In this document: positions 14,755 through 37,269 of the stretch, one piece after another
How the letters are laid out: each line of letters starts with the position of its first letter
How positions within the stretch are numbered: the stretch's first letter is position 1
Assembly (NCBI RefSeq): GCF_000429325.1
Contig: NZ_KE386885.1
Coordinates: 399,958 to 463,957 of the forward strand
Direction: 5' to 3'
Source: Fundidesulfovibrio putealis DSM 16056
Lineage (GTDB): Bacteria; Desulfobacterota; Desulfovibrionia; Desulfovibrionales; Desulfovibrionaceae
DNA length: 64,000 bases
Position numbers and translations under genes: made by a program
The notes under the pieces: generated by a model
Seen by the model: only the letters and a program-made list of their open reading frames with translations
What the model was told of the DNA's origin: nothing
The model's database searches: none

Positions 14755-14762
14755 GTCTTTCG

Positions 14763-14810
14763 TGGTGCCGAGGGACGGAATTGAACCGCCGACACGGGGA
14801 TTTTCAGTCC
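14763..14810 (-). repeat. left attachment site: 48-bp duplicate of the tRNA-Phe 3' part
   Basis: These 48 bp are identical to 37194-37241 and correspond to the tRNA from the anticodon arm through the T arm and acceptor end to CCA. Beyond 14810 the similarity to the tRNA ends at once, so this copy lacks the 5' half and cannot be a functional tRNA. This is the usual footprint of integrases that use tRNA 3' ends. Confidence 0.9.
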
Positions 14811-14910
14811 TTTAATGCTACCTTTGCCGTCATACCTCAGAATGCCTAGTTCAATAATAACAATAGATTGAAATGCAGCCGTGATACCAGGGATTACCTT
14901 GACGGACTTT

Positions 14911-14932
14911 TCATCCGGGACTATTCCGGGAC
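14911..14932. repeat. left-end copy of CCGGGACTATTCCGGGAC repeat
   Basis: Eighteen bases (14915-14932) occur identically at 37100-37117 near the other end of the island. Within them the unit CCGGGAC appears twice with starts 11 bp apart, one helical turn. The copy ends one base before the integrase start codon (14934). The pairing near both att sites suggests arm-type binding sites for the integrase or an accessory factor, or an integrase operator. This is inferred from position. Confidence 0.5.
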
Positions 14933-14933
14933 C

Positions 14934-16151
14934 ATGGCAGCACGATGGAATCGCACTCCGTACCCTGGCGTACGCTACCGGGAACACCCCTCCCGCAAGC
15001 ACAACGGCAAGCCCGACCGGTATTTCAGCATCCGCTATTACATCAACTACAAGGATTGCGAGGAAGGGCTCGGCTGGGCCTCGGACGGCTGGAATGCCGA
15101 AAAGGCTCACAAGATTCTCGCCAAGATCAAAGAGGGCGTAAAGACGGGGGCGGGGGCGCAGAGTCTCGGCGAACTCCGGGCCGAAGCTGAAGCTCACCGC
15201 GCGAACCAGGAGATTGAGGCGAGGCGGAGCGATTTGCAACGCATGACGCTTTCCACGTTCATCGTGGAGCACTTCCTGCCGGAAATTAAGCTCTGCAAGC
15301 GCACCTGGATGGACGACAAGGGCCGGATCGACAAGCACATTCACGCCAAGCTGGGAGCGCTCCCGCTCTGCGCAATCAACAAGAACGACATCCGCGCCTT
15401 CCTGGACTTCCTGCGTGAGACCGGGGCATCTGAGGCCACCGCACTGCACTATATGGCCATTCTTCGCCGAATCTTCAACATGGCCCGCGTCACTGTTGTC
15501 GAGGGGACTCCTCTGTTTACGGGCCGAAGCCCCATGGAAGGAGTTGCCCTTCCAAAGCCGAAGAACGGTCGGGAGCGGTTTCTCAGCTACGAAGAGGCCG
15601 ACCGGCTTGTCGAGGGAGCCAAGGGGGCAGCCCAGCCGGACCTCCATGCGGCCATAGTCATGGCCCTCAACACGGGCATGCGCCTTGGTGAAATACTGCG
15701 CCTTGAGTGGGTGGACGTCGATCTTAAGCACGGCATCATCACCATCCGGGAAGAGGCCGACAGAAAACCCGGAGGCAAGGTCTTCATCAACGCCGACCTG
15801 GAAACCGTCCTCATGGAGCGTTTCTCGATCCGTGGCCAGTCCCGCCTTGTCCTGGCTCCACCGAAGGGAGGGCGGGAGCGCAGTTCCCTCACGCACCGCT
15901 TTTCCGAACTTGTTGTCTCTCTGGGCTTCAATGAGCACGTGACCGACGCCAGGCACAAGGTTGTGTTTCACACTTTGCGCCACACGTTCGCTTCCTGGCT
16001 GGCCATGGCCGGGACGGACATCTACCGCATCAAGACCTTGATGCGGCACAAGACCATCACTATGACCATGCGCTACGCTCATCTCATACCTGACGCCACC
16101 AGGGCTGCCGTGCATAACCTGCGTCCGGACAACGGGGCTACAGGCTTTTAA
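14934..16151 (+). CDS. int: tyrosine recombinase/integrase of the nif island
   Basis: From ATG at 14934 (MAARWNRTPYPGVRYREH) the product has 405 residues. The N-terminal 60 residues form an arm-binding-like domain, followed by a core-binding SAM-like helical domain and a C-terminal catalytic domain. Catalytic residues are visible: Arg in LNTGMRLGEILRLEW, the HTLRHTFASWLAMAG box (His-x-x-Arg), and the Tyr in MTMRYAHL near the C-terminus. It lies 120 bp inside the left att copy and reads into the island, the usual place for an integrase. An in-frame ATG at 14868 exists but adds residues not expected for the family. Confidence 0.93.
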   Translation: MAARWNRTPYPGVRYREHPSRKHNGKPDRYFSIRYYINYKDCEEGLGWASDGWNAEKAHKILAKIKEGVKTGAGAQSLGELRAEAEAHRANQEIEARRSDLQRMTLSTFIVEHFLPEIKLCKRTWMDDKGRIDKHIHAKLGALPLCAINKNDIRAFLDFLRETGASEATALHYMAILRRIFNMARVTVVEGTPLFTGRSPMEGVALPKPKNGRERFLSYEEADRLVEGAKGAAQPDLHAAIVMALNTGMRLGEILRLEWVDVDLKHGIITIREEADRKPGGKVFINADLETVLMERFSIRGQSRLVLAPPKGGRERSSLTHRFSELVVSLGFNEHVTDARHKVVFHTLRHTFASWLAMAGTDIYRIKTLMRHKTITMTMRYAHLIPDATRAAVHNLRPDNGATGF

Positions 16152-16410
16152 GGCCAGCGACCTTGACGACACCGAAACGGTCAACGACCCACCTCACTAA
16201 CGATTCGGTCCTGTAGGCGATCGTCCGGCCCACGCGGTAGGCCACCTCCGGCCCCATTCCGGCGCAGTCCGCATTGGAAAGCGTCTGTGAGGCCACCATG
16301 CCCCCCAGGTAGCGGTTGACTTCCTTTCGGGCAATGACCGGCGGAAGGCTCGAAACGAGCGTGCTGATGAATTCCTCTTCCTCGGCTGTCAGCTTTCTCG
16401 GCTTGCGCAT
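16138..16410 (-). CDS. small DNA-binding-like protein next to the integrase (possible excisionase/regulator)
   Basis: From ATG at 16410 (MRKPRKLTAEEEEFISTLVS) with GAGG upstream, the product has 90 residues. The C-terminal half (VASQTLSNADCAGMGPEVAY then RVGRTIAYRTESLVRWVVDR) looks like a winged or MerR-like helix-turn-helix that ends in a basic helix, as in excisionases and AlpA-type proteins. Its 3' end overlaps the integrase 3' end by 14 bp in convergent orientation. A longer in-frame extension to 16854 is rejected because its composition is non-coding and it overlaps the next gene. Function is inferred from size and position. Confidence 0.6.
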   Translation of the reverse strand: MRKPRKLTAEEEEFISTLVSSLPPVIARKEVNRYLGGMVASQTLSNADCAGMGPEVAYRVGRTIAYRTESLVRWVVDRFGVVKVAGLKSL

Positions 16411-16588
16411 GGAGACCTCATGATTGTGGCGTTGGGCGTCCCCGGACGCGAGGGTAACGAACGCCTCGGCCCAGGGAAGTCGAGGTTCATTTGCAAGAAT
16501 TTCTTGTACAGCGCAAGACGAAATAGTTTCCGATTGCTGGGATGTGTTTGGGGAGGAAGACGTCTGAGAACTGCGTCTTAAGTGTGTA

Positions 16589-16888
16589 TCATGCCTGAAT
16601 TGGGATGTCGGCGTCTCTTGCCTTTTCCTTCGCAACGGCAAGCAGATAGGCCAAGTCCTCGCCCAAGGCTTCGGCCATGCGCTGGGCATCCGAGAGAAGC
16701 ACTCCCTGGGGTTTCCCGGTGTTGGCAGATCGACTGCGTATGGCGGCCCATTTGGTAGCGGCGGATTTTGGATTGTCCTGGGGCCAGACCTTTTGGGCGA
16801 ACTCGCCTTTGCCCCATCCACGGGCGTCTGCCCGCTCGTCGATAAGCGCGACAAGGCAGCGCTCTATGAGTGAAGGAAAATCATCCAT
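16589..16888 (-). CDS. small HTH-type regulator of the island
   Basis: The ATG at 16888 has AGGG upstream and gives 99 residues. The sequence [20 protein letters not shown], then a [13 protein letters not shown] helix pair and [20 protein letters not shown], reads like a Cro/CI-type domain in which a DNA-binding helix pair carries an atypical insert ([17 protein letters not shown]). Proteins of this kind accompany integrases of Desulfovibrio prophages and islands. It is transcribed toward the integrase and divergently from nifV, whose promoter lies within 100 bp of its start. A repressor role is an inference. Confidence 0.6.
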
Positions 16889-16974
16889 GGACCCTATCGG
16901 AAAGAATTTCTTGTCTACAGTCAAGTGCAAAATCCAGGCATACAGTTTGTCCTTTCAGACCATAACATAAGGAG

Positions 16975-16991: not shown

Positions 16992-17017
16992 CTTCGTGGC
17001 TTTCAAGGAGAGCCCAT

Positions 17018-18172
17018 ATGTCCATCCCACCCCTCCTGCCTCAAACCATCATTCACGACACCACGCTGCGCGACGGAGAGCAGACGGCTGGAGTCGCGTT
17101 CACTCTGGAAGAGCGCTTGGCCATCGCCACCGCGCTGGCCAAGGCGGGCGTGCCGGAGCTTGAAGTCGGCATCCCCGCCATGGGTGAACGCGAGCAGGAA
17201 GAGATCCGCGCCATCAGTGCGCTCGGCCTGCCCTCCCAACTGGTGGTATGGTGCCGCATGCGCAAAGACGATCTATCGGCTGCCAGAAACTGCGGAGTGA
17301 ACCGGATTAACTTATCCGTGTCGCTGTCCGACCAGCAGATCAAAGGCAAGCTGGGCCTGGATAGGCTCCGTGTGCTCGATCTCATCTCATCCATGACTGC
17401 GCGGGCGCTGGATTTGGGATTTGAGGTGAACATGGGCGGGGAGGACAGTTCACGAGCTGACCCGGAATTCCTCGCCCAGGCATTGGAAGCCGCAGAAAGG
17501 GCTGGAGCTGGCCGTTTCCGCTTTGCCGACACAATCGGCTTGCTGGAACCCTTCGTCACGCGCAGAATCTTTGAACGGCTCAGGAGGCTCACTTCGTTGG
17601 AGCTCGAAATCCACGCCCATAACGACCTCGGGCTCGCAACCGCCAATACCCTTGCTGCCATCCAAGGTGGAGCTTCCCACGCCAACACAACTGTAAACGG
17701 GTTGGGCGAGCGCGCGGGAAACGCCCCCCTGGAGGAAGTGGTCATGGCCCTGAGACTCCTTCACGGAGTGGACACTGGAGTGCGTGCGCGCAGCCTGCCC
17801 GAGGTGTCCCAGCTGGTGGCTCAAGCGTCGGGGCGCGCCGTAGCGGCGAACAAATCCGTCGTCGGCGAGGCGGTGTTCACGCACGAATCCGGCATTCACG
17901 TCAGCGGAATCCTGCGTGATCCCGCAAACTACCAGAGCATCAACCCGGAGGAACTGGGACGGGCTCATACGCTGGTATTGGGGAAGCACTCTGGAACAGC
18001 CGCCGTGCGCTTCGCCTACAGCCGTATGGGGGTCGATCTTGTAGAAGAACAGGCGCGGGCCATCCTGCCTCTTCTTCGAGAGCATTCGGCCAGGACCAAA
18101 CGCACTCCTGGGCACGAAGAGCTTATGGCACTGCTTGTTCAGGCGGCTGACGCGTTACGGCCTGCGTCGTGA
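17018..18172 (+). CDS. nifV: homocitrate synthase NifV
   Basis: From ATG at 17018, with AAGGAG 8 bases upstream, the product has 384 residues, normal for NifV. It condenses acetyl-CoA with 2-oxoglutarate to homocitrate, the organic ligand of FeMo-cofactor. The HMGL/TIM-barrel signature [12 protein letters not shown] starts near residue 14. The second family signature [13 protein letters not shown] holds the metal-binding His pair, and [14 protein letters not shown] follows. A C-terminal LeuA-like dimer segment is short. Related homocitrate and isopropylmalate synthases share these motifs, but the length and nif context favour NifV. It has its own sigma-54 promoter. Confidence 0.93.
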
Positions 18173-18423: not shown

Positions 18424-18732
18424 TTAACTGATCATGTATTCTTCGGGCGGGGTCCCGCCCTCAATGCCATCGAGAATGGCGTCGATTATGTCCGTGCTGT
18501 TGACGCCTTTGAACCACCAGTTCTCGGGCTGGACCACCAGAATAGGTCCACTCTCGCACTGTTTCAGGCAGGTGGTCCCGGTCACGAGGCAGTCGAGCCC
18601 GCGATCGATCACTTCTTCTTCAATATATTGAAGGAACCCTTCGGTCTGCTTCTGACAGACGCCCTTTTGTCCGCCTCCGCCGGTGGTGCGAAAACTCTGG
18701 CAGACGATGATCTGCCTCTGGGGGGTGGCCAT
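18424..18732 (-). CDS. thioredoxin-fold 2Fe-2S ferredoxin of the nif cluster
   Basis: The product has 102 residues. Four cysteines fit the ligand pattern of Clostridium pasteurianum-type (Shethna) 2Fe-2S ferredoxins: Cys11, Cys26, Cys55 and Cys59, with an additional Cys48. The N-terminal strand and Gly-rich loop (SFRTTGGGGQKG) and the TTCLKQCESGP turn are typical. Such ferredoxins are often encoded beside nifH and interact with or protect nitrogenase. It lies 256 bp downstream of nifH on the same strand. A weak GG-N10-GC element (18850-18868, minus strand) could give it a separate promoter. It may otherwise depend on nifH read-through. Confidence 0.85.
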   Translation of the reverse strand: MATPQRQIIVCQSFRTTGGGGQKGVCQKQTEGFLQYIEEEVIDRGLDCLVTGTTCLKQCESGPILVVQPENWWFKGVNSTDIIDAILDGIEGGTPPEEYMIS

Positions 18733-18988: not shown

Positions 18989-19918
<930 letters not shown>

Positions 19919-20092: not shown

Positions 20093-20281
20093 TGTTCACG
20101 ATGGAACATTCGCCAGGCCTCATGGGAACACCCTTTACCTGTCCGCTTGCCGACACCAATATAAAATATTGATATAATGATATATTGCCAATAATGAAAA
20201 ATTGCTGACGGCGGCGAGAATCTCGTGCGCTTCGAGCGCTCTTCATCCATCTATCCCTCCCCGAGTGTTCCACCACGAACA
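20093..20281. promoter_or_regulatory. three NifA upstream activator sites between nifH and nifI1
   Basis: Perfect TGT-N10-ACA elements lie at 20093-20108, 20140-20155 and 20266-20281. They are 47 and 126 bp apart. They lie 220-410 bp upstream of the nifH -24 element and 260-450 bp before the candidate nifI1 promoter at 20541. I found no other perfect copy in this intergenic region. The cluster could serve both divergent operons as one enhancer. The AT-rich stretch 20160-20200 between the second and third sites could help DNA bending. Confidence 0.65.
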
Positions 20282-20540
20282 CCTGACGCCAGAGTAGGTG
20301 CCCCACGAAGCCTTCGCGCAGGTGTCAATCTGTGCGGGGACAGTCCCTCCTGCGCCTGGCTCGCAATTTTGAAAAACATGAATATGTTCGTCATAGTTAA
20401 AGTAAATCATTTCGGGCGATTGCTTCTGTGTCCATGAGGGCGGAATTATGAAGTCGCACCGCCAACCTTCCCCGCGCCACCTGCCGTAAGTGTCTCTGGG
20501 CACGTTCCATCCGTCGCCTCGCGGCAACTCTCCACGCATC

Positions 20541-20803: not shown

Positions 20804-21136
20804 ATGAATTACGTAATGATCAGGGCCATCATCCGACCCGAGAAAGCCACTGATGTTCTTGCCGCACTGATGGATGCTGGTTTCCCCGCCGCAACAAAGA
20901 TGGCCGTGTTCGGCCGCGGCAAGCAGCGGGGCATCAAGATGGGCGAGATCGTCTATGACGAACTGCCGAAGGACCAGTTGCTTCTCGTCGTTCCATCCGA
21001 GGACAAAGACATCGTGGTCAAGACCATCATGGACGTCGCTCGCACGAGCACGGCAGGGGCGTATGGCGACGGCAAGATATTCGTGTCGGGCGTCGACGAG
21101 ATCTACACCATCAGCTCCGGCAAGAGGGAAGGCTGA
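20804..21136 (+). CDS. nifI1: nitrogenase-linked PII protein NifI1
   Basis: The product has 110 residues of the GlnB/PII fold and starts MNYVMIRAIIRPEKATDVLA. The T-loop region (VFGRGKQRGIKMGEIVYDEL) lacks the uridylylated Tyr context of ordinary GlnB and is of the NifI type. In archaea and other group II/III diazotrophs, NifI1 and NifI2 form a complex that inhibits NifDK in response to ammonium through the 2-oxoglutarate/ATP ratio. AGGAG precedes the start. It begins the operon and is followed 34 bp later by nifI2. Confidence 0.93.
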   Translation: MNYVMIRAIIRPEKATDVLAALMDAGFPAATKMAVFGRGKQRGIKMGEIVYDELPKDQLLLVVPSEDKDIVVKTIMDVARTSTAGAYGDGKIFVSGVDEIYTISSGKREG

Positions 21137-21170
21137 GCCCCCCCCCAACCCAAGGATGGAGAGAAAGCAC

Positions 21171-21545
21171 ATGAAGGAAGTCATGGCCGTGGTGCGTATT
21201 AACATGATGAGCAAGACCAAGAAGGCCTTGGAGGATGCGGGAATATCCTCCTTCATGGCCAAGGACTGCCTCGGTCGCGGAGTCGGGCTCGTGGACCTCA
21301 AGACCCTGAAAGGGGCGGAGATGGGCTACGACGAAGCCATTCAGCAGTTGGGCGCGGGGCACCGCCTCATCGCCAAGCGGTTCGTGTCCGTGGTCGTGCC
21401 CGACGAACTTGTGGAGAAGACTGTGCAGGCGATCATTGCCGCCAACCAGACCGGCAACCCTGGAGACGGGAAGGTCTTCGTCCTGCCGGTTATGAATTCC
21501 ATCCGCGTCAGAACCGGTGAAGAAGGGCCTCTGACATTGGATTGA
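21171..21545 (+). CDS. nifI2: nitrogenase-linked PII protein NifI2
   Basis: The product has 124 residues from ATG at 21171 (MKEVMAVVRINMMSKTKKAL), slightly longer than NifI1 as expected. The T-loop is extended and carries GRGVGLVDLKTLKGAEMGYD. The C-terminus has the PII signature-like GDGKVFVLPV. It partners NifI1 in ammonium-dependent inhibition of dinitrogenase. A run of nine C (21138-21146) lies between the two genes. nifD follows after 34 bp, so regulator and enzyme are co-expressed. Confidence 0.93.
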   Translation: MKEVMAVVRINMMSKTKKALEDAGISSFMAKDCLGRGVGLVDLKTLKGAEMGYDEAIQQLGAGHRLIAKRFVSVVVPDELVEKTVQAIIAANQTGNPGDGKVFVLPVMNSIRVRTGEEGPLTLD

Positions 21546-21579: not shown

Positions 21580-23199
21580 ATGTTTGACATCGCGCATATG
21601 AAGTCAGAGGTCGCCAAGATACTGGAACAGTACAAAGGCAAGACGTTCAAGAACAGAAAAGGCCATGTCCTTGTGGTGGACTCTGCCGAGGCCCCGCAGG
21701 TTATCGAGGCGGACTGCCGGACCATACCAGGCATCATCACGGAACGCGGCTGTTGCTACGCAGGATGCAAGGGCGTCGTCGTAGGCCCCCTCAAGGACAC
21801 CATCGCTCTCACCCATGGCCCCATCGGCTGCGGTTATTACAGTTGGCTCACCCGCCGCAACAAGGCGCGCAAGAACGAAGGCGACGAGTTCAACTTCCTG
21901 CCTTACTGCTTTTCCACGGACATGCAGGAGACGGACGTGGTCTTCGGCGGCGAGAAGAAGCTGAAGCAGGCCATCACCGAGGTCGTGGACATCTTCAAGC
22001 CCAAGAGCATCATGATCTGCTCCACGTGCCCCGTGGGCCTGATCGGGGACGACATCAACGCCGTCGCGCGCTGGTCCGAGGAAACCTACGGCGTCCAGAC
22101 GATTTCCTACAGCTGTGAGGGCTACAAAGGCGTGAGCCAGTCAGCCGGACACCACATCGCAAACAACGGCCTCTACAAGAACATCATCGGCACCGGCACT
22201 GACCCTTCCGTCAAGAAGCAGTACTCCATCAACATCCTGGGCGAGTACAACATCGGCGGCGACGGATGGGAGATTGAAAGGATTCTGAATGCCCTGGGCT
22301 ACAACATTCTGGCCATGATGTCCGGTGACGGTTCCGTTGAGCGTCTGCGCAACGCGCACCTGGCTGACCTCAACCTGGTGCAGTGCCACCGCTCCACCAA
22401 CTACAACGCGGAGCTGCTGCGGGACACCTACGGCACGGACTGGGTAAAGGTGAACTTCCTAGGCGTGCGCAGCACCATCCAGTCCCTACGGGACGTGGCC
22501 CTGTACTTCGGAGACCCGGACCTTATCGCCCGCACCGAAGAGTTCATCTACAAGGAACTGGAAGCCATCGAGCCTGAGATCGAAAAGTACAAGAAGGTCT
22601 GCCAGGGCAAAACCGTGGCGCTCTTCGTAGGCGGCTCCCGGGCCAACTTCTTCCAGGGGCTCTTCGAGGAGATCGGCATGGAGACAGTGCTGGCTGGCTT
22701 CGAATTCGCCCACCGCGACGACTACGAGGGCCGCGAGGTCATCCCCACCATCAAGGAAAACGCGGACAACAAGAACATCGAAAGCCTGACCGCGAAGCGC
22801 GATGAGAAGAGGTACCGGGTCCTTCTTTCCCAGGAGAAGTATGAAGAACTCGAAAAGAAAATGGAACTCAACGACTTCAAGGGCATGATCAAGATCATGA
22901 AGGACGGCAGCGTGGTGGTGGACGACATCAACCATTACGAGATCGAGTCGTTCATGAAGGTGCTCAAGCCGGACCTGTTCGGTTCGGGAATCAAGGAGAA
23001 GTACGTCATCCACAAGATGGGCACGCTCTCCAAGCAAATCCACTCCTATGACTACAGCGGCCCCTTCGCCGGTTTCAAAGGAGCGGTGATCTTCGCGCGG
23101 GATGTGGCCATGGGCCTCACCGCGCCCGTCTGGAGCATGGTCAAGCCGAAATGGAAGGCCGAGCCCGCACCCAAAAGCTTCGTGGAGGAGGTACGTTAG
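21580..23199 (+). CDS. nifD: nitrogenase molybdenum-iron protein alpha chain NifD
   Basis: The product has 539 residues. P-cluster ligands fit Cys58 (ERGCCYAG), Cys84 (GPIGCGYYS) and Cys150 (CSTCPVGLIGDD). FeMo-cofactor ligands are Cys269 (VQCHRSTNY) and His488 (IHSYDYSGP). Gln187 and His191 (VSQSAGHHIANN) line the active site. An insertion of about 50 residues around 380-435, rich in Lys and Glu, is the hallmark of the Clostridium-like (group II/III) NifD and accounts for the extra length over Azotobacter NifD. These conserved His/Cys/Gln residues and the nifE/nifN partners indicate a molybdenum enzyme and not a vanadium or iron-only one. Confidence 0.97.
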   Translation: MFDIAHMKSEVAKILEQYKGKTFKNRKGHVLVVDSAEAPQVIEADCRTIPGIITERGCCYAGCKGVVVGPLKDTIALTHGPIGCGYYSWLTRRNKARKNEGDEFNFLPYCFSTDMQETDVVFGGEKKLKQAITEVVDIFKPKSIMICSTCPVGLIGDDINAVARWSEETYGVQTISYSCEGYKGVSQSAGHHIANNGLYKNIIGTGTDPSVKKQYSINILGEYNIGGDGWEIERILNALGYNILAMMSGDGSVERLRNAHLADLNLVQCHRSTNYNAELLRDTYGTDWVKVNFLGVRSTIQSLRDVALYFGDPDLIARTEEFIYKELEAIEPEIEKYKKVCQGKTVALFVGGSRANFFQGLFEEIGMETVLAGFEFAHRDDYEGREVIPTIKENADNKNIESLTAKRDEKRYRVLLSQEKYEELEKKMELNDFKGMIKIMKDGSVVVDDINHYEIESFMKVLKPDLFGSGIKEKYVIHKMGTLSKQIHSYDYSGPFAGFKGAVIFARDVAMGLTAPVWSMVKPKWKAEPAPKSFVEEVR

Positions 23200-23201
23200 T
23201 C

Positions 23202-25119: not shown

Positions 25120-25163
25120 GCGTCTTGGCTCCGTTTTTAACAACGCCACGCCCAGAGGGTTTT

Positions 25164-28177: not shown

Positions 28178-28195
28178 TCTGGCGCACTCTTTGCT
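28178..28195 (+). promoter_or_regulatory. sigma-54 promoter of the AnfO-like/ABC transporter unit
   Basis: TCTGGCGCACTCTTTGCT has GG (28181-28182), ten bases, GC (28193-28194) and a good -12 TTTGCT. It precedes the likely start codon at 28287 by about 80 nt after the transcription start. No perfect TGT-N10-ACA lies in the 200 bp upstream. Confidence 0.6.
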
Positions 28196-28286
28196 GAATG
28201 AAGAGGAAGCTGCCCCCGCCCGCCCTGGAGATTGGACTTCGGGAGACGCGCCAAGCTCTGGACGACTGAGTGTGAAGGAACGCCAC

Positions 28287-28909: not shown

Positions 28910-28926
28910 AAACAAGGAGTTTGCGT

Positions 28927-29904
28927 ATGTCCCCGAATTGCATCAAAAGTCACCGCCTCCTGTCCTTCTGCCTGGCGGTGCTGCTGGCCTTCATGACCAC
29001 TCCGGTCCTGGCCAAGTCCGATAAGGTGACCATCGGATACAGCAAGCTCATCATCAGCCTGCCGATATTCGTAGCCTCTGACCAGGGCCTGTTCGCCAAA
29101 AACGGCCTGGATGTCACTCTGGAGGAATTCGAGACGGCCCAGCCCCTCATGGACGCCCTGGTGTCGGGCAAGGTGGATGTGGCGGGTTACACTGCCTACG
29201 CCATCACCATGAACGCGTCGCTGCGTTCCAAGAAGGCTCTTTACTATATGACGAGCCTGGTGGAGGACGCCAGCCACCCCATCAGCAAACTCCTGGTCAA
29301 GAACGGCTCCGACATCAAGAGTATCGAGGACCTCAAGGGCAAGCGCGTCGGCATCCTGCCCACCGTGGCCTACAAGCTCTGGATGGAGGCGGTGCTTGCC
29401 AAGAAAGGTGTGGACCCGGCGGACGTGATCCTCCAGCACGTGGCCCCGCCCATGTCTGTCTCGGCCCTGGAATCCGGGACCGTGGACGCGCTCTTCACCA
29501 ACGATCCGGCCTCAGCCGCAGTGCTCAAGTCCGGCGTGGGCAAGGAGCTGGTGACTGGCGCAGTAGTCCCGGAACTTCTGGGCTCCCCCTTCCCCTTCGC
29601 CAGCTTCAACATGGACAAGGCCTACGCCGACGCCAATCCGGCCATCGCGGCCAAGGTCGTCAAGTCGCTCGACGATGCCATCGCGCTCATCAATTCCGAC
29701 CCCGCCAAGGCCAAGAAGTCCATGGAGAAGTTCATGAAGGACGCTGAAAAACCTTTTGTGCCATTCTACTCCAACCCGCTTTACCTGCCGAGCGCCAAGT
29801 TTTCGAGAGCGGACCTGGAGGCCGTCATGGAGCGCTATCTGTCACTCAAGATGATCCCGGCCAAGCTGGAGCTCAAGGACATGGCCCTGCAGGCCAAGAA
29901 ATAG
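28927..29904 (+). CDS. NitT/TauT-type ABC transporter substrate-binding protein
   Basis: AAGGAG seven bases upstream selects the ATG at 28927. The 325-residue product starts with a Sec signal peptide (hydrophobic core LLSFCLAVLLAFMTTPVLA, cleavage after PVLA). The mature protein has the SsuA/THI5-like fold: TIGYSKLIISLPIFVASDQG, then GLFAKNGLDVTLEEFETAQP and the DLKGKRVGI strand. Relatives bind nitrate, sulfonates, thiamine precursors or oxyanions. The ligand here is unknown. Its place in a nif island, behind a sigma-54 promoter and before an activator gene, suggests import of a compound needed for nitrogen fixation. Confidence 0.9.
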   Translation: MSPNCIKSHRLLSFCLAVLLAFMTTPVLAKSDKVTIGYSKLIISLPIFVASDQGLFAKNGLDVTLEEFETAQPLMDALVSGKVDVAGYTAYAITMNASLRSKKALYYMTSLVEDASHPISKLLVKNGSDIKSIEDLKGKRVGILPTVAYKLWMEAVLAKKGVDPADVILQHVAPPMSVSALESGTVDALFTNDPASAAVLKSGVGKELVTGAVVPELLGSPFPFASFNMDKAYADANPAIAAKVVKSLDDAIALINSDPAKAKKSMEKFMKDAEKPFVPFYSNPLYLPSAKFSRADLEAVMERYLSLKMIPAKLELKDMALQAKK

Positions 29905-29993
29905 GCCTCAGGTGCTTCGCGTATGTGTGGGGAGGCATGGGGGCCGCCCTGCCTCCCCTATCAACGACCATATTCCTGGATACGAGGCTTGCC

Positions 29994-30755
29994 ATGGAAT
30001 CACTCGCCACCAGCCCGGGAGCCTTTCCCCTCGTTGCCGAAACGGCGGCCATCGATATCCGGCGTGTGTTCCGGCGTAATCCGGGCCATGGGTGTTGCGC
30101 TGACACAGTGTTCGAGGACTTCAGCCTGCGGGTCGGTCCGGGCGAGGTGGTGGGACTGTATGGTCCCAACGGCTGCGGCAAGACTACACTGCTCAACATG
30201 GTGGCCGGGATACTGAGGCCTGATTCGGGCGAGATCGTGCGCGCCCGGCCGGAGCTGCGCGTGGCGTACGTCTTCCAGGACTTCAAGACCAGCCTGTTTC
30301 CCTGGTTCACTGTGAGGAGCAACATCCTCTATCCCCTGGCAGCAACCGGGGTTCCTTCCTCCCGCCGCTCACAGCGGCTCGATCGCCTGATCGAGACCGT
30401 GGACATCCCCTTCAGCCTGGACAAGTACCCCTATCAGCTCAGCGGCGGGCAACAGCAGTATGTCTCCATCCTGCGCGGGCTGATCAGCGATCCGGCCGTG
30501 ATGCTCCTGGATGAGCCGTTCTCGGCTCTTGACCAGGGAAGCACGTCCTGGCTGCGGGAGGTGCTGCGCCAGGTGTTCGCAGCGTACCGCGTTTCAGTCC
30601 TCATGGTTTCCCATGATCTGACCCACTTCAGCAACCTGGCCGACAGGGTCTGCGTGCTGTCTGGCAAGCCTGCCATGATCACGCGGGAGATCGTCGCGCC
30701 GAGATGCGCCCGAAAGCGCCGGGAGGACTGCCCCTATGCGGAAATCCTTCACTAG
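29994..30755 (+). CDS. NitT/TauT-type ABC transporter ATPase
   Basis: The ATG at 29994 with GAGG upstream gives 253 residues. The nucleotide-binding motifs are complete: Walker A GPNGCGKTT near residue 55, Q-loop VFQDFKTSLFPW, signature QLSGGQQQYVSI, Walker B VMLLDEPFSALD and VSHDLTH. The QDFKTSLFPW loop is characteristic of the SsuB/TauB/NrtD group. The C-terminal 20 residues are basic and Cys-containing. Its end overlaps the permease gene by 20 bp, so the two are translationally coupled. Confidence 0.92.
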   Translation: MESLATSPGAFPLVAETAAIDIRRVFRRNPGHGCCADTVFEDFSLRVGPGEVVGLYGPNGCGKTTLLNMVAGILRPDSGEIVRARPELRVAYVFQDFKTSLFPWFTVRSNILYPLAATGVPSSRRSQRLDRLIETVDIPFSLDKYPYQLSGGQQQYVSILRGLISDPAVMLLDEPFSALDQGSTSWLREVLRQVFAAYRVSVLMVSHDLTHFSNLADRVCVLSGKPAMITREIVAPRCARKRREDCPYAEILH

Positions 30756-31518
30756 CGGGCTCTCGCCCCAGGTTGCGTCGTGCGCGCGGCCGCTTTTGAT
30801 GCTGGCGGTGTTCGTGGCGCTCTGGCAGACCGTGTCCTCACTGGGGCTCGCCAATCCCATGTTCCTGCCCTCTCCCGTGGAGGTTCTGGACAAAGCGCGG
30901 CAGTTGTCGCTCCAAGAGCGCATCAGCGCGGATGTGACAGCCACGCTGTGGCGGGCGCTGGCAGGATTCGGCCTGGCGTTCTGCCTGGGTGTGCCGTGCG
31001 GGCTGGCCCTTGGCGCGTCGGACAGGCTCTTTTCATACTTCGAGCTGCCCATCGATTATTTCCGTTCCATTCCTCCTGTGGTCCTCTTTCCACTGGCACT
31101 ACTGTGTTTCGGCATTGGCGAAGCGTCCCGCATTGCTGTCGTGGTGTTCGGGTGCCTGCCGATCCTGCTGGTGAGCGTGGCCGTTGGCGTACGTGCGGGC
31201 TCGCGGCAACGCCGCAAGGTGGCAGCGGCTCTTGGTGCGAGTGACATGCGCGTTTTCCTGAGCGTCATCGTTCCAGAAGCACTGCCGAGCGTCTTCGTGG
31301 GCACGCGGGTGGCCTTGTCCATGGCCATCATCATCGCCGTGGTCACGGAAATGCTTGTGGGCGCGAAGTACGGCCTGGGAGGAAGGGTCATTTCCGCACA
31401 GATCGCTTACGACACCCCGGAACTCTACTGCAACATCATCGTTGTTGGCCTGATCGGGCTGGCCATCAACAAGCTCTGCTCAACGATCCAAGGATTTGTG
31501 ATCCATTGGGAGCAGTAA
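30736..31518 (+). CDS. NitT/TauT-type ABC transporter permease
   Basis: The 260-residue inner-membrane protein has about six helices (first at 15-35, last near 230-250). The BPD_transp_1 EAA-like motif reads AAALGASDMRVFLSVIVPEA near residue 165 and contacts the ATPase. FRSIPPVVLFPLALLCFGIG is typical of the SsuC/TauC group. It completes a binding protein-ATPase-permease set of 28927-31518. There is no sign of a second permease. Confidence 0.92.
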   Translation: MRKSFTSGLSPQVASCARPLLMLAVFVALWQTVSSLGLANPMFLPSPVEVLDKARQLSLQERISADVTATLWRALAGFGLAFCLGVPCGLALGASDRLFSYFELPIDYFRSIPPVVLFPLALLCFGIGEASRIAVVVFGCLPILLVSVAVGVRAGSRQRRKVAAALGASDMRVFLSVIVPEALPSVFVGTRVALSMAIIIAVVTEMLVGAKYGLGGRVISAQIAYDTPELYCNIIVVGLIGLAINKLCSTIQGFVIHWEQ

Positions 31519-31639: not shown

Positions 31640-33286
31640 ATGCTCAGCGAGGCTTTACGCATCATGATCAGCAATGAGTCACTCTACAGGCAGTCCGTCG
31701 AAGGTCCGTTCGGCAAGGACGGAAATCGCACCAAGGGCTGCAACGGCGGCAGCTGCCGCGAGAAGATCGTGCCCGTGCTGTCCGCCATAAAACGCGCCAT
31801 TTCCGGGAAATGCGAACTCTCCACGGCCATCGAGAATCTTCTGGACTACATGCGCCACGACATGGGCATCGACCGCGCCATCATCAATCTTTATCACCAG
31901 GAATCGGGGGAGATATTCTCCCACAAGAGCTTCGGCATGACTGAGGAGGAAGAGGACAGAGGCTTGCAGAGCCTGGGAGACTGGATCGCAGAGAAGGTAA
32001 TCTTCTCGTGCAAGCCAGTCATGATACCAAAAATATGTGACGACGCCAGTTTTTCAAGCCTCAGGCGCAGCCTGTTGAGCGCCAAGGACATGAAAAGCTC
32101 GTTCTTCTGCATCCCGATACATCGCGGGAAGAAGGTGATAGGCAGTATCAGCGCAATTCGGCATTACGACGCCCAGCACCTGCTGTGCAAGCACGTGGAG
32201 GCTCTGGAGGTTGTCTGCTGTCTGTTGGCCCAGGCCATGGATATGTATCTCGTGGAGAACGTGGACCGGCACAATTTCGAAAGACACCATCGCGAGCACA
32301 AGGACGAACTGCGCGACCTTTTGAAGCCCCAGAACATCATCGGGGCCTCCAAGGCCATGCTGGATGTATTCGCCATGCTGCACAAGGTCGCCCCGACCAA
32401 GACCACTGTGCTTGTGCTCGGCGAAAGCGGTGTGGGCAAGGAGATGATCGCCAGCGCCATACACTCCAACAGCCCCAATGCCGATGGCCCCATGGTGAAG
32501 TTCAACTGCGCGGCGCTGCCCGAGAGCATCCTGGAAAGCGAACTGTTCGGGCATGAGAAAGGGTCGTTTACCGGCGCGGCGCAGCTGCGCAAGGGGCGCT
32601 TCGAGGAGGCGGACGGCGGAACCATCTTCCTCGACGAGGTGGGAGAGCTCTCGCTTGGGGCGCAGGCCAAACTGCTGCGTGTCCTTCAGGAGCGCTCTTT
32701 CGAGCGTGTGGGCGGCAGCAAGACCGTGACGGTGAACCTGCGCGTGGTGGCGGCAACCAACAGGGATCTTGCGGAGATGGTGCGTGCGGGAACCTTCCGC
32801 CAGGACCTGTATTTCCGGCTCAACGTGTTTCCGCTCATGCTGCCGCCTTTGCGCGAACGCGGCAGGGACGTCATAACACTGGCAGAGTATTTCATTTCCA
32901 AGTTCGCGGAAGAGAACGGCAAGCAGGTCAACCGGATAACAACCACCGCCTTGAACATGCTCATGAGCTACCACTGGCCTGGCAACGTTCGCGAGCTTGA
33001 AAACGTGATGGAAAGGGCCGTCGTCCTGGCCGAAGACGACGCCATTCACGGGCGCAATCTTCCGATGGTCGTGCAGTCCGCCGTGTTCACGGACACGGAG
33101 AGCAGGCAGGGACTAGAAGCAAAACTCGCGGCAATCGAGTACGAGATGCTCCTGGATGCGCTCCGCCTGCACAGTGGCAATCTTACAAGGGCGGCGGGCG
33201 AACTGGGTCTGACGCGCAGGACGCTGACCCTGCGCATGAAGAAATATAATATGGTCTACAAGACGTTCCGCAGTGGTGACGATTAG
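31640..33286 (+). CDS. nifA: NifA-type sigma-54-dependent activator
   Basis: The product has 548 residues (ATG 31640; ATG 31664 is an alternative, with GAGG further off). The N-terminal GAF domain spans about 45-205. The AAA+ domain (about 230-465) has Walker A LGESGVGKE, the sigma-54 contact loop ESELFGHEKGSFTGA, Walker B GGTIFLDEVGEL and the arginine-finger region. The C-terminal Fis-type helix-turn-helix (NLTRAAGELGLTRRTLTLRM) is the DNA-binding part. This is the NifA/AnfA/VnfA architecture. It should bind the TGT-N10-ACA sites upstream of nifH and nifI1. The Cys cluster in the AAA-HTH linker that marks oxygen-sensitive NifA is absent. VnfA- or AnfA-like specificity cannot be excluded. Confidence 0.87.
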   Translation: MLSEALRIMISNESLYRQSVEGPFGKDGNRTKGCNGGSCREKIVPVLSAIKRAISGKCELSTAIENLLDYMRHDMGIDRAIINLYHQESGEIFSHKSFGMTEEEEDRGLQSLGDWIAEKVIFSCKPVMIPKICDDASFSSLRRSLLSAKDMKSSFFCIPIHRGKKVIGSISAIRHYDAQHLLCKHVEALEVVCCLLAQAMDMYLVENVDRHNFERHHREHKDELRDLLKPQNIIGASKAMLDVFAMLHKVAPTKTTVLVLGESGVGKEMIASAIHSNSPNADGPMVKFNCAALPESILESELFGHEKGSFTGAAQLRKGRFEEADGGTIFLDEVGELSLGAQAKLLRVLQERSFERVGGSKTVTVNLRVVAATNRDLAEMVRAGTFRQDLYFRLNVFPLMLPPLRERGRDVITLAEYFISKFAEENGKQVNRITTTALNMLMSYHWPGNVRELENVMERAVVLAEDDAIHGRNLPMVVQSAVFTDTESRQGLEAKLAAIEYEMLLDALRLHSGNLTRAAGELGLTRRTLTLRMKKYNMVYKTFRSGDD

Positions 33287-33464: not shown

Positions 33465-34244
33465 TTAGTCTCTTTTGAAAACGATGAGCGGACAGTTCTT
33501 GCAGATGTCCGCGCCCGGGAACGGATCGCCCAGGCGGGTGATGGACGCTCCGCCGGTCTTGGCCTTGCGCTCGAGCAGGCGCTCCACCACGGCCGGGAGC
33601 TGATCGCCGGGAATGGAGATGTTCACCTCGCCTCGCTCCATTTTGCCCGCGTTGTAGTTGCCGCTGCACGCCAGATACACATTAGCCTTGGTCGTCTCGA
33701 ACACGCGGACGTTGCCGCCGCAGGCCGCCGAGTTGACCGTTATGGCGCTTTCCAGCACCGGCCTGCCCTGGGTGGCCATCCAGTCCGTGGCCAAGTGGTA
33801 GGCCTGCATGGTGTCACAGGTGAAGTGCACCACATCAGGCATCCTGTCCGACGCGCCCAGCGGTTCCAGGCCGACAGCCATCAGGCCCTTGCCTTGGAGA
33901 GTAGCCTTGCCCTTGACGATGGCTTCTAGTGTCAGGGCCCCTGAGGCGTACTTTGCGTGGCTTTTCAGCTCCCCTTCGTCGCAGCCCTTCCAGCCGAACA
34001 CGTACTTGGCGTTGGTGCAGCCCAGCTTTTCAGGCTCCATGAGCACGCGGATGCTCTCCATGCGCGGGCCGAGCTCCGCCTGGCAGAAGGTGACGGGTTT
34101 GACCGGGCGGTGGTAGTCCCCCCCGGCCTTGAAGGCGTCCACACCTTCCTGGTTGAAGCAGTAGAACACCGCGACGGGCGCGTGCATCAGACGCAGCTCG
34201 CGCATGAGGGCCTCGCGCATGAAATCAGGGGTGACGCTGGTCAT
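33465..34244 (-). CDS. DUF169 family protein
   Basis: The product has 259 residues and no signal peptide. The stretch DVVHFTCDTMQAYHLATDWM followed by a glycine-rich VNSAACGGNVR region matches the DUF169 family. Cys residues in KPVTFCQAELGP, KLGCTNAKYV and the C-terminal ADICKNCPLIVF could bind metal or a cluster; the CKNC pair is notable. The biochemical role of this family is unknown to me. It is transcribed toward nifA. Its promoter overlaps a palindrome (34283-34310), and it lies beside a Mop gene, so a link to molybdenum or tungsten handling is possible but unproven. Confidence 0.75.
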   Translation of the reverse strand: MTSVTPDFMREALMRELRLMHAPVAVFYCFNQEGVDAFKAGGDYHRPVKPVTFCQAELGPRMESIRVLMEPEKLGCTNAKYVFGWKGCDEGELKSHAKYASGALTLEAIVKGKATLQGKGLMAVGLEPLGASDRMPDVVHFTCDTMQAYHLATDWMATQGRPVLESAITVNSAACGGNVRVFETTKANVYLACSGNYNAGKMERGEVNISIPGDQLPAVVERLLERKAKTGGASITRLGDPFPGADICKNCPLIVFKRD

Positions 34245-34423: not shown

Positions 34424-34444
34424 CCTACTGGCGGGGCGTTCCGC

Positions 34445-34654
34445 CTAGTCGACGACGACCATGACGTTGGACGCCTTCACCATGGCCTTGACCGGCGAGC
34501 CGACCTTGAGGCCCATGGAGTCGACGGAGTGCTTGGTGATGATGGACACGATCTCGATGCCAGGCGAGACTTCGATGACGACCTCGGAGTTCACGGCTCC
34601 TTGGGTGATTTCCTTGATCTTTCCAGGGATCAGGTTGCGGGCGCTCACTTTCAT
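34445..34654 (-). CDS. mop: molybdate-binding protein Mop (molbindin, single TOBE domain)
   Basis: AAGGAG six bases upstream selects ATG at 34654 (69 residues; an in-frame ATG at 34699 is less likely). MKVSARNLIPGKIKEITQGA and the later ITKHSVDSMGLKVGSPVKAM are the classic molbindin motifs that bind molybdate or tungstate in an oligomer. Clostridial and Azotobacter nif regions often encode such proteins to buffer molybdenum for cofactor synthesis. It is a single gene with its own terminator. Confidence 0.9.
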   Translation of the reverse strand: MKVSARNLIPGKIKEITQGAVNSEVVIEVSPGIEIVSIITKHSVDSMGLKVGSPVKAMVKASNVMVVVD

Positions 34655-34714
34655 AGGGTTCTCCTTTGTTTGTCCCGGCTCCAGGCGGACGGGCTTCATG
34701 ATTTGCGTCCCCTA

Positions 34715-35020
34715 TCACGCCTGATAAATGTACTGATAGCAATATTTTTCGTGACTCTTCCGGTGTCGCTGGAAGCATCCTTCCAGCGTCGGATCGCTCT
34801 CAGGCATGCTCCGCACTTCCTGCAGGCATTCGCGCAGCGACAGCACGGTGAGGAAGTCCTCATTGTCCGGCAGAGCCAGGCGTACCGCTTCCAGCCATTG
34901 CGTCTTCAGGAACCAACCGGTCCCGACGGCCTCCCAGAAGCCCATTTCTGTAGACAGTTCGTTCAACGTGTCCGTTCCCTGCCCCTGGAGGCGGCGTACG
35001 AGGGATATCGCCACTCCCAC
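34715..35020 (-). CDS. hypothetical protein between mop and traJ
   Basis: There are up to 101 residues from a GTG at 35020; inner starts (TTG, then ATG at 34945) are possible and no ribosome-binding site is convincing. The sequence is protein-like: GFWEAVGTGWFLKTQWLEAV, ALPDNEDFLTVLSLRECLQE, then a basic tail. I recognise no family. It occupies the position where a relaxase follows traJ in IncP-type systems, so it could be an unrelated cargo gene or a remnant next to a deletion. Confidence 0.4.
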   Translation of the reverse strand: MGVAISLVRRLQGQGTDTLNELSTEMGFWEAVGTGWFLKTQWLEAVRLALPDNEDFLTVLSLRECLQEVRSMPESDPTLEGCFQRHRKSHEKYCYQYIYQA

Positions 35021-35153
35021 CCGGCGCGGCGGGGCCTTGCGACTGATCGCGTCAAGCCGGGGTCGAGGCTTAGGGCATTGTTGCTGGCCAAGCGCCGTAA
35101 GTCGTCACTTCGGTTGCCGAAGCCGACGCGACATCTGCTCATGGTAGAAACGT

Positions 35154-35483
35154 TCAAATCCGGGCGATTAAGGCCCTTAGTTCCCGTTGCCGGGCTTCAA
35201 TCTCCCTGAGCAACCTTCGCGCCTCCATGTGCAACGCCTGGATCGGCGTGTCCTTCTCCGACAGGCACAACTTGAAGAGACCTCCTAGCCTTCCCAGATC
35301 GGCGTTGACCCTGAGCAGGTCCCGCCGGGCGTGCTGCTTCTCAAGGCTTGGCGTAGGCTGCCCCAGGCAGACGCGCTTGGCAAAGGTTGAAAGCGACAGC
35401 CCGGTCCTTGCGGCGTGTTCTTGGATGCTTTTGTATTCTTCTGGCGTCAAATAGGTTTTCAGCACTGCTTTTTTCGAGGGCAT
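35154..35483 (-). CDS. traJ: TraJ/MobC-like relaxosome accessory protein
   Basis: The ATG at 35483 (MPSKKAVLKTYLTPEEYKSI) with GGAG upstream gives 109 residues. An N-terminal ribbon-helix-helix-like part (YLTPEEYKSIQEHAARTGLS) is followed by the TraJ-type signature RVNADLGRLGGLFKLCLSE, close in form to the NGDLGRLGGLLKLWL segment of RP4 TraJ. TraJ binds the inverted repeat at oriT and recruits the relaxase. The oriT lies 70 bp upstream of the gene, the same arrangement as in RP4. No TraI, TraK or TraH is seen. Confidence 0.82.
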   Translation of the reverse strand: MPSKKAVLKTYLTPEEYKSIQEHAARTGLSLSTFAKRVCLGQPTPSLEKQHARRDLLRVNADLGRLGGLFKLCLSEKDTPIQALHMEARRLLREIEARQRELRALIARI

Positions 35484-35554
35484 GAAAATCTCCACGTCCA
35501 TTGTCGTCATGCGTTGAGCCTAAGGCGAATAAGCAGAAGCCCCGCAGGGCAACT

Positions 35555-35586
35555 GTGAGGTAGGCCTACCTCACCTGTCCTGCCTT
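35555..35586 (+). other. RP4/IncP-type origin of transfer (oriT) with nic site
   Basis: A perfect 20-bp palindrome (35555-35574, centre GGCC) is followed by TCACCTGTCCTG|CC. The 22 bases 35563-35584 agree with the RP4 nic region, as I recall it, at 20 of 22 positions, including the YATCCTG|C core with one A-to-G change. The predicted nick is after 35582. Transfer would begin rightward on the plus strand, so the traJ side would enter last, as in RP4. The palindrome is the expected TraJ binding site. Confidence 0.82.
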
Positions 35587-35611
35587 CGAACTGCATCATT
35601 TCATATGCTAT

Positions 35612-36241: not shown

Positions 36242-36955
36242 TTACTGTTTCTGCCCTGGGCTGTGTCCGGGCGGATACCCCAGGGACTCATTCGTTCGCC
36301 GCAGGGCCTCTCGCAGATCAAGGCCGGTTCTGACGTGCATCGCCCATGTCTGGTTCCATTCGATCACACGCTGCTCCGTAGCCCCACCCCTGGGCGCACG
36401 TACGGGCCTGAATTTGAAACCGGATGTGACCCGACGCATGAAGTCGGCGAACATGCGGTTGGCTTTCCGCGCTTTGCGACGGAGCGCCTCCGATGCCCTG
36501 GCTTGTTCGCGCCGTAGCATCGGCCCGAGGCCCAGCCATTCAAAGAGGCCCGAGGCGATGATTCGGATAGCCCGGCATCCGAAGTATTTCCCTTCCTCGC
36601 TTTTTCGTCTCGGCTGTCTCACCTGCATGAACCCCGCCTTCCTCAATTGCCCTATGGCGCGCTCGCATCGGCGCTGGCCAAGGCCGGAGTCCCTGACGAT
36701 GGTTTTCATGTCGATGTCGATGAAGCCGTTGGCCAGGGTAGGCACTCCCAGGCATAGAGACGCGAGGTCGAGATGCGATAGCATGGTTTCCAGGACCACA
36801 AGGCACGCCTCACGACGTTCGCTGCGCATCTTTCGGTCGCCATGGGTCAAGAGTGGAGGGCATTTTCTCGGATGGTCAAACCAAACCTTGGTCCGCTCGG
36901 CAGCCAGGGAAAGGATGCGGGGCAGGCCACCCTTCCCCTTGCGAATTGGACGCAT
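36242..36955 (-). CDS. plasmid replication initiator-like protein
   Basis: From ATG at 36955 (MRPIRKGKGGLPRILSLAAE) the product has 237 residues; a TTG at 37060 would add 35. Two winged-helix-like segments are visible: MRSERREACLVVLETMLSHL plus DIDMKTIVRDSGLGQRRCER, and AIGQLRKAGFMQVRQPRRKS. The C-terminal half is basic and helical (RREQARASEALRRKARKANR). The pattern resembles RepA-like initiators of small plasmids in proteobacteria. With oriT, traJ and nearby repeats, it supports a plasmid origin of the island. Family assignment is tentative. Confidence 0.55.
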   Translation of the reverse strand: MRPIRKGKGGLPRILSLAAERTKVWFDHPRKCPPLLTHGDRKMRSERREACLVVLETMLSHLDLASLCLGVPTLANGFIDIDMKTIVRDSGLGQRRCERAIGQLRKAGFMQVRQPRRKSEEGKYFGCRAIRIIASGLFEWLGLGPMLRREQARASEALRRKARKANRMFADFMRRVTSGFKFRPVRAPRGGATEQRVIEWNQTWAMHVRTGLDLREALRRTNESLGYPPGHSPGQKQ

Positions 36956-37097
36956 GGCTTCAAGCCGAGGGTGCCTCGGATCATGGCCGCAACGATTGCC
37001 GGTTAATCCCGGCCCGGGCGAGGGAGAGCCGTGAAAAGAGGCGGCACTGCTTTCAGGCAATGACGCCCCCTGTGGAATCGGGAGGGGTGATTTTTTG

Positions 37098-37134
37098 TTC
37101 CGGGACTATTCCGGGACAAAGTGGTTTCCGGGAC
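37098..37134. repeat. right-end cluster of three TTCCGGGAC repeats
   Basis: TTCCGGGAC begins at 37098, 37109 and 37126. The first two units make up the 18-bp sequence (37100-37117) that is repeated exactly at 14915-14932 near the left end. They lie 60-96 bp from the right att site. Arm-type integrase or excisionase sites are the likeliest explanation. Confidence 0.5.
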
Positions 37135-37139
37135 CAAAG

Positions 37140-37184
37140 ACAAAGGGTTGCATGACAGGGACTTTCCTGCATGCAACCCTTTGT
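37140..37184 (-). terminator. island-borne terminator now serving tRNA-Phe
   Basis: Perfect 15-bp arms ACAAAGGGTTGCATG (37140-37154) and CATGCAACCCTTTGT (37170-37184). On the minus strand the stem begins 9 bp after the CCA end of tRNA-Phe and is followed by CTTT. It appears to replace the chromosomal terminator, which was displaced to 14725-14754. Confidence 0.75.
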
Positions 37185-37193
37185 TATTGTTAA

Positions 37194-37269
37194 TGGTGCC
37201 GAGGGACGGAATTGAACCGCCGACACGGGGATTTTCAGTCCCCTGCTCTACCAACTGAGCTACCTCGGC
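37194..37269 (-). tRNA. tRNA-Phe (anticodon GAA), integration site of the nif island
   Basis: Reading 37269 to 37194, the 76 bases fold as a cloverleaf: acceptor GCCGAGG/CCTCGGC, D arm AGCTCAGTTGGTAGAGC, anticodon stem GGGGA/TCCCC around CTGAAAA (anticodon GAA), T arm GGCGGTTCAATTCCGTC, discriminator A and an encoded CCA. The 3' 48 bases equal the left att copy, so its 3' part was probably supplied by the element on integration. Confidence 0.97.

Follow-up and report, generated by a model that had tools for sequence, protein, structure and literature searches.

The nitrogen-fixation (nif) genes of some bacteria lie between two copies of the end of a tRNA gene, which raises the question of whether they are the cargo of a mobile element and whether that cargo could work alone. 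The question is posed here by a locus of Fundidesulfovibrio putealis DSM 16056, within a stretch of 64,000 nucleotides (contig NZ_KE386885.1, positions 399,958 to 463,957 of the forward strand; hereafter the window, to which all coordinates refer unless a contig is named). An initial annotation, made from the sequence of the window, had described there a complete nitrogen-fixation island inserted in tRNA-Phe. Our comparisons indicate that the 22.4-kb stretch at 14763-37241 is very probably an integrated, plasmid-like mobilizable element that carries an auxiliary molybdenum-nitrogenase set dependent on the NifB of its host.

Insertion at tRNA-Phe and the empty site in a congener

The sole tRNA found by ARAGORN in the window is tRNA-Phe(GAA), at 37194-37269 on the minus strand, and it is intact at the right end of the island, as annotated initially. 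Its 3' part, from the anticodon loop through the CCA, recurs at the other end of the island as a 48-nt direct repeat that is 100% identical over both copies (14763-14810 and 37194-37241); repeat comparison thus gives an intact, presumably rebuilt target gene and a distal copy of the attachment (att) site. The integrase gene that the initial annotation had placed beside the left copy does start there: its ATG, at 14934, is some 120 bp away from the repeat (Phage_integrase, E 1e-22). The G+C content between the att copies is 58.5%, against 64.0% and 65.0% in the flanks. A terminator of the rho-independent type, at 14725-14754, would have stood behind tRNA-Phe before the insertion and now lies at the distal end.

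Searches of the genus with hflX and the tRNA, and with nifD, covered seven genomes, the host included. The nearest congener at the tRNA-Phe locus, G004 (96% nucleotide identity over the tRNA and hflX), has a single contig that joins the counterpart of 37194-39361 (94.6%) directly to that of 14718-14810 (98.9%), with 12-8606 of the window aligning alongside at 90%. When the two flanks of the island are joined, they match G004 across tRNA-Phe and 45 nt beyond it, except for a single mismatch in the terminator loop, and no base is added; past that point the sequences diverge. In G004, nearly the same terminator hairpin stands directly 3' of the intact tRNA-Phe, so the empty site predicted for a close relative exists, and a general lack of such sites among relatives, which the annotation had named as grounds for its own refutation, is ruled out. 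Because both flanks are contiguous in G004, the 48-bp repeat is not a chance resemblance. At the level of sequence, the empty site demonstrates the insertion event, and the island is a real site-specific insertion at tRNA-Phe.

Four other congeners (G001, G002, G003 and G005) have, on visual inspection, a hairpin and T-run directly 3' of tRNA-Phe. The last 30 nt of the tRNA (with up to four substitutions) were not found again in the downstream stretches scanned, of 719, 10,133, 17,774 and 17,606 nt, respectively. These loci, in which the left flank is not syntenic, back the unoccupied site without proving it. In G006, tRNA-Phe is occupied by another island, about 24 kb long (G006:C1:235449-259676; loci L042 and L043). 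Its G+C content is 48.6%; it encodes a HerA-type helicase, a DNA methylase and, adjoining the tRNA, an integrase of its own (Phage_integrase, E 3e-22), and at its far end stands a 45-nt copy of the 3' part of the tRNA at 91% identity. Being separate from the island studied here, it makes tRNA-Phe of this genus a repeated target.

A second nitrogenase set without nifB

The cargo is a second set of the molybdenum type, made up of nifH, nifI1, nifI2, nifD, nifK, nifX, nifE, nifN, nifV, nifA, mop, a transporter and an AnfO-like gene. By family matches, nifA, mop and the transporter genes all lie between the repeats, as the initial annotation had listed them, and so do all the nif genes identified in the window, where the family scan outside the repeats covered hflX. 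Genome-wide, the claim that all nif genes are inside the island does not hold, for contig C6 of the same genome has a resident cluster of nifB, nifH, nifI1, nifI2, nifD, nifK, a ferredoxin gene, nifE and nifN. Resident-type nifD exceeds the model cut-off in six of the seven genomes of the genus (the seventh, G004, is 66% complete). Beside the resident cluster there are nifV-like genes below the model cut-off, and the island nifV is the only one over it in the seven genomes.

The only nifB over cut-off in the genome is the one on C6. A tblastn search of the window with the resident NifB gives nothing, and what the nifB model hits there, at 33 bits, is just the NifX-like domain. According to PMC11573651, nifB belongs to the accepted minimum gene set for nitrogen fixation. 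The absence of nifB from the island is thus shown by search and, because of it, synthesis of the FeMo-cofactor would start from the resident NifB; this dependence is a reading of the gene inventory. The word "complete" in the initial annotation therefore has to be given up, and with the resident cluster on C6 and no nifB found on the island we reject the island as the complete or sole nif set of this organism. The wider claim, that nif genes travel here as cargo of a site-specific mobile element, stands for the tRNA-Phe insertion and the nif cargo and falls for the set as complete or only one.

Mosaic origin of the cargo

Compared with the proteins of the C6 cluster, those of the island are 50% identical for NifD, 55% for NifK, 45% for NifE, 40% for NifN, 67% for NifI1 and 53% for NifI2. 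The island nifH, on the other hand, matches the resident copy at 96% of amino acids, 91.4% of nucleotides and 79% of third codon positions. Searches in the family covered 288 genomes, and a search of the phylum covered 395 genomes drawn evenly. Island-type NifD occurs in one other of the family genomes, G269, which belongs to another genus (85%; next best 60-63%), and the best match outside the family reaches 63%; IMG/VR gave no match to the island NifD. In a tree of 24 rows, the island plus 23 of the nifD loci fetched, where 143 genomes have a match, the island and G269 pair with an SH-aLRT of 100, far from the resident clade. NifH identity to the island is at most 86% in all family genera outside that of the host, and a nucleotide tree of 24 rows (the island, the host, 20 fetched nifH loci and two others) pairs the island with the resident copy of the host at an ultrafast bootstrap of 88. 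This tree does not resolve the genus cleanly, other genera attaching beside G002, and what we draw on is therefore limited to the pairing of island and host and to the identities. Set against the NifD tree and identities, these suggest that the line of the host genus most likely supplied nifH, or converted it, and that the nifD-K-X-E-N, nifA and ABC transporter block is most likely foreign to the genus and came from elsewhere.

The G269 set is an auxiliary one too, alongside another nifD in that genome. Its NifD, NifK, NifE and NifN are 78-85% identical to those of the island; over C28:29000-44000 of G269, nifD-K-X-E-N match at 72-85% and nifA, the ABC transporter and the AnfO-like gene at 55-79%, with the nifA-ABC-anfO segment inverted relative to nifDKXEN. 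On the 70 kb of that contig no homologue of the island nifH, nifI1 or nifI2 (E <= 1e-3) and no nifB were found.

A plasmid-like backbone and its sister elements

At the end of the island next to tRNA-Phe, a minus-strand gene (36242-37060) encodes a protein resembling plasmid replication protein RepA. It is 36% identical to an annotated plasmid RepA (E 3e-33), the best of 307 plasmid records that match at E <= 0.01, and 73-78% identical to its counterparts in three sisters, and it has no Pfam or NCBIfam match. Also on the minus strand, 35154-35510 encodes a TraJ/NikA-like relaxosome protein, here called mobC (PF21983, E 7e-16; PRK13877 TraJ, E 9e-21, under cut-off). The adjacent relaxase gene is a stub of about 20 codons (35075-35142, minus strand), recognized by blastn and DNA alignment with contig C15 of the host, where homology ends about 20 codons into the relaxase; a tblastn search of the window with the whole relaxase gave no significant match. 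Upstream of mobC, 35511-35587 is 83.5% identical to C15, has a core with a short palindrome common to the window, C15 and contig C5, and is perhaps an origin of transfer (oriT). Of the traits of an integrative mobilizable element (IME), the island has a site-specific recombinase and directly repeated att copies, and its target is empty in a relative; the relaxase of its own that an IME requires is not present beyond the N-terminal stub. The island is therefore classed as a relaxase-less derivative, IME-like in its working and not an IME proper. A Pfam scan of 30 ORF proteins, all but hflX from the island, found no type IV secretion family.

Related elements occur elsewhere in the host genome (G000:C15, G000:C5:1-5589 and G000:C2:55307; loci L103, L104, L105, L116 and L118). 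C15, of 24,181 bp, has an integrase (75% identity to that of the island), an 86-aa ORF beside it (79%), RepA (82%) and mobC (69%), together with an open 546-aa relaxase ORF (PF03432) whose best plasmid matches are annotated TraI/MobA(P); its other genes are for cation transport (P-type ATPase, MgtC, CDF) and a two-component system. Its rep gene, a piece of tRNA-Thr and int are adjacent, and its ends have no exact overlap of 13-400 nt. Positions 1-5589 of C5 hold an intact tRNA-Thr(CGT), an adjoining RepA gene (73%), DNA of the mobC region and a broken relaxase. C5 combines an intact tRNA-Thr with the rep end of a sister, and two relatives have sequence of the C2 side close to tRNA-Thr; for these reasons, C15 is no more likely to be the free circular form of a sister than part of an array of elements at tRNA-Thr. 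The sister elements at or near tRNA-Thr may form such an array, spread across contig breaks. At C2:55307 there is a further piece of tRNA-Thr, with a distinct integrase (Phage_integrase, E 2e-30).

RepA relatives (E <= 1e-30) are found in 19 of the 288 family genomes. Ten loci were fetched, the tenth being the window itself, and the other nine were scanned for tRNA genes; in seven the RepA match has an intact tRNA at a distance of 95-360 bp (Thr CGT in five, Lys CTT and Arg CCT in one each), and in two no tRNA was found. The seven are not fully independent, since the spacing is the same in L204 and L205, which may be closely related. The order rep-mobC-relaxase was seen in all four loci examined in other genomes, three with a tRNA, which stands ahead of rep, and one without a detected tRNA. 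Distant relatives of RepA, at 23-33% identity, occur at 32 loci of IMG/VR contigs.

The opposite end of the island carries the tyrosine integrase, on the plus strand, in an ORF open over 14868-16151 (405 aa from the ATG, 14934-16151). It is 75-77% identical to the integrases of C15 and of L031 (JARKOY010000077.1); the order-level search covered 348 genomes. The L031 integrase, on a contig binned as Spirochaetia, is the closest in named genomes (77%); the bin label may be wrong. L031 int adjoins a tRNA-Lys-like piece (seen by eye; ARAGORN finds no whole tRNA) and genes of the AbiE toxin-antitoxin type. A repeat scan found direct repeats of the TTCCGGGAC type on the plus strand at both ends of the island, at 14913-14932 on the left, where the left unit is imperfect, and at 37098, 37109 and 37126 on the right (37098-37134); they are possible integrase arm sites, and the TTCCGGGAC motif also lies just upstream of int in C15 and L031. 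Next to int, an 86-aa minus-strand ORF (16153-16410; 79% in C15, 77% in L031, beside int in both) has the position of an excisionase and may be one. A 99-aa ORF of the backbone follows on the same strand (16589-16888; 85% in C15, 74% near the att piece on C2). These two ORFs and the one at 34715-35020 have no match in NCBIfam or PHROGs.

Gene content and control region

The nif genes are split over both strands, nifH and a ferredoxin gene on the minus strand diverging from nifI1-I2-D-K-X-E-N. From the integrase side, nifV for homocitrate synthase (17018-18172, plus; TIGR02660, 508.7 bits, over cut-off) is followed by the 2Fe-2S ferredoxin gene (18424-18732, minus; fdxn_Clost, E 5e-13, under cut-off) and by nifH, of the host-genus lineage as argued above (18989-19813, minus; TIGR01287, over cut-off). 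Across the control region lie two genes of the P-II family, nifI1 (20804-21136, plus; P-II models under cut-off, 67% to the resident gene) and nifI2 (21171-21545, plus; Pfam P-II in the ORF 20874-21545, 53% to the resident gene). In the same direction follow nifD (21580-23199; TIGR01282 best at 627 bits, below its cut-off of 653.6; TIGR01862 over cut-off), nifK (23151-24563, likely start 23202; TIGR01286, over cut-off), a gene for a NifX-like protein with a Nitro_FeMo-Co domain, which is not nifB (24715-25119; nifX model 94.3 bits, cut-off of 112 not reached), nifE (25125-26546; TIGR01283, over cut-off) and nifN (26585-27961; TIGR01285 best at 302.8 bits, below its cut-off of 326.8).

Still on the plus strand, the gene for the AnfO-like accessory protein (28191-29024; PF09582) precedes, by family matches, an ABC transporter with NMT1-type binding protein, ATPase and permease (28906-31518), which is kept with the nif set in G269, and a nifA-type sigma-54 activator of GAF-AAA-Fis architecture (31640-33286; TIGR01817 is the best family at 456 bits, cut-off of 528.9 not reached). 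The NMT1-type transporter and the AnfO-like gene accompany the nif block in both the window and G269. On the minus strand, genes for a DUF169 protein (33465-34244; PF02596, E 2e-37) and for mop, a protein with a molybdenum-pterin-binding domain (34445-34699; TIGR00638, over cut-off), complete the cargo side.

The solved structures nearest to the island proteins are the MoFe proteins 4wes and 1mio of Clostridium pasteurianum: their alpha chains for NifD (648 bits) and 1mio_B for NifK (641 bits), many residues being different. LVQCHRS and KQIHSYDYSGP fall in conserved stretches of the alignment with 4wes and 1mio, and presumably hold residues of the cofactor region.

The gap between nifH and nifI1, 990 bp long, contains three of the four TGT-N10-ACA sites of the island, at 20093, 20140 and 20266 (20093-20282), where 0.29 would be expected and 0.4% of Markov resamples reach three. 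We take this motif to be a NifA-type site. A pattern scan with the sigma-54 consensus adds a promoter of that type before nifH, on the minus strand (TGGCACAACTTTTGCCA, 19852-19868). NifA and sigma-54 probably drive expression from this control region of about 1 kb, and NifI1 and NifI2 may tune the nitrogenase set.

Discussion

Our results point to a course of events in which the tyrosine integrase of the element, judging from the anatomy of the locus, placed it in the 3' half of tRNA-Phe, so that the RepA end now has the rebuilt tRNA gene and the integrase end the 48-bp copy. The element probably excises by means of the same integrase. Because its own relaxase has been cut to about 20 codons, conjugal transfer would need one in trans, and the relaxase of a sister such as C15 could act on the retained oriT-like region. 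A broader proposal, which we offer tentatively, is that of a mobile "plug-in" nitrogenase: a family of integrating plasmids that spreads a nifB-less molybdenum module among nif-bearing bacteria, relies on the resident NifB, has captured the nifH of the genus and is moved by a relaxase that a sister in the same cell supplies in trans.

The earlier view of a self-sufficient island that confers diazotrophy on its host draws on the catalytic, scaffold, regulatory, homocitrate and molybdenum-binding genes gathered between the repeats. It is made very improbable by the lack of nifB in the window, a gene of the minimum set (PMC11573651), and by a host that has its own cluster with nifB in a genus where resident nifD is the rule (six of seven genomes). 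About equally improbable is an origin as an integrative conjugative element (ICE) or prophage. An integrase and a tRNA site are common to all three kinds of element and the RepA family has its distant relatives in IMG/VR, but neither type IV secretion nor phage structural families appeared among the ORFs scanned, the backbone is the rep-mobC-relaxase module of the sisters, and the island NifD has no IMG/VR relative. An alternative vanadium or iron-only nitrogenase might be suspected from the AnfO-like protein (PF09582, E 2e-35; TIGR02940 at 42 bits, cut-off of 129 not reached). Since NifD and NifK score best with molybdenum models (NifD 627 bits with the nifD model, 287 with VnfD and 279 with AnfD; NifK 452 bits to nifK against 356 and 294 to the vanadium and iron-only models), we reject it as scarcely credible, with no search aimed at a VnfG or AnfG gene; nifV, nifX-like and mop genes are present, and AnfO-like genes also adjoin the nif sets of G064, G093 and G269.

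Somewhat unlikely, though more probable than these, is a degenerate and immobile remnant, its cargo locked in after loss of the relaxase and either kept by selection on nif or drifting. The reduction of the relaxase to some 20 codons agrees with this, as does the broken relaxase of the C5 sister; yet the integrase, both att copies, the oriT-like region, mobC and RepA are all present with their ORFs open, the nif ORFs are open as well, and the C15 sister in the same genome has an open 546-aa relaxase ORF. Several observations count against the integrated, mobilizable, NifB-dependent element that we favour. NifD, NifN, nifA and NifX each score below their own NCBIfam cut-off, and the excisionase is a guess from gene position. 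A second indel, left of the island, separates the window from G004, since some 6 kb adjoining the distal att copy (8607-14717, including an 1894-aa ORF) gave no alignment to the G004 stretch examined, and with G004 66% complete the failure to find nif there means little. The absence of type IV secretion covers the Pfam-scanned ORFs and not every ORF. In G269, no homologue of the island int, RepA or mobC or of the C15 relaxase was found on the 70 kb of C28 (E <= 1e-3), and the RepA element of that genome sits at tRNA-Lys on C41, unlinked to the nif set. Because the two are separate, movement of the cargo between genera by this backbone is at most suggested, as is a link of cargo and backbone across genera.

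Nif cargo on tRNA-targeted elements is already known from rhizobia. The symbiosis island ICEMlSymR7A of Mesorhizobium loti, of 502 kb, rebuilds a phe-tRNA and leaves a 17-bp repeat, according to PMC4334631. As described there, it is like the island in its nif cargo, its integrase and a tRNA-Phe rebuilt at one end with a repeat of the 3' end at the other, and unlike it in being conjugative, in its nodulation genes and in having intS 198 bp from the intact tRNA (PMC4334631). The island, by comparison, has 22.4 kb, a 48-bp repeat, a relaxase stub, RepA next to the tRNA and the integrase at the opposite end; no nifB was found on it and its host has another nif set, while IntS is set beside its integrase by description only. 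The nif plasmids of Nitratidesulfovibrio vulgaris resemble the island in having nif on a mobile replicon and hold the nearest nifD in the plasmid collection; they differ as free plasmids of 175-202 kb, with NifD about 50% identical to that of the island. This species presumably belongs to the same bacterial family as the host or to a near one. The passages of PMC10102598 consulted mention both a plasmid and nitrogen-fixation genes for D. vulgaris, and leave unstated whether the genes are on the plasmid. In Sphingobium fuliginis, the 37-kb plasmid pPDL2 has a site-specific integrase and attP and has been compared with integrative mobilizable elements (PMC3516476); it is likened to the island by description only, as another integrase-bearing element of plasmid type with another host and another cargo.

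The literature, in a search that mostly left aside subscription journals, gave no account of nif islands inserted in a tRNA in the host family. The parts are thus of known kinds, and it is their combination that we did not find there: an integrated element of RepA type, a second molybdenum set without nifB and an nifH derived from the host. One practical consequence is that in a survey of NifH proteins the island and resident copies, being 96% identical, would be hard to separate. Another is that nifHDKEN, nifA, nifV and mop together on an island do not prove that the ability to fix nitrogen came with it. In this organism, a host with a nif cluster of its own, both the insertion event and the likely dependence of the cargo on the host can be read from the sequence, and the origin of duplicate nitrogenases becomes a testable question.

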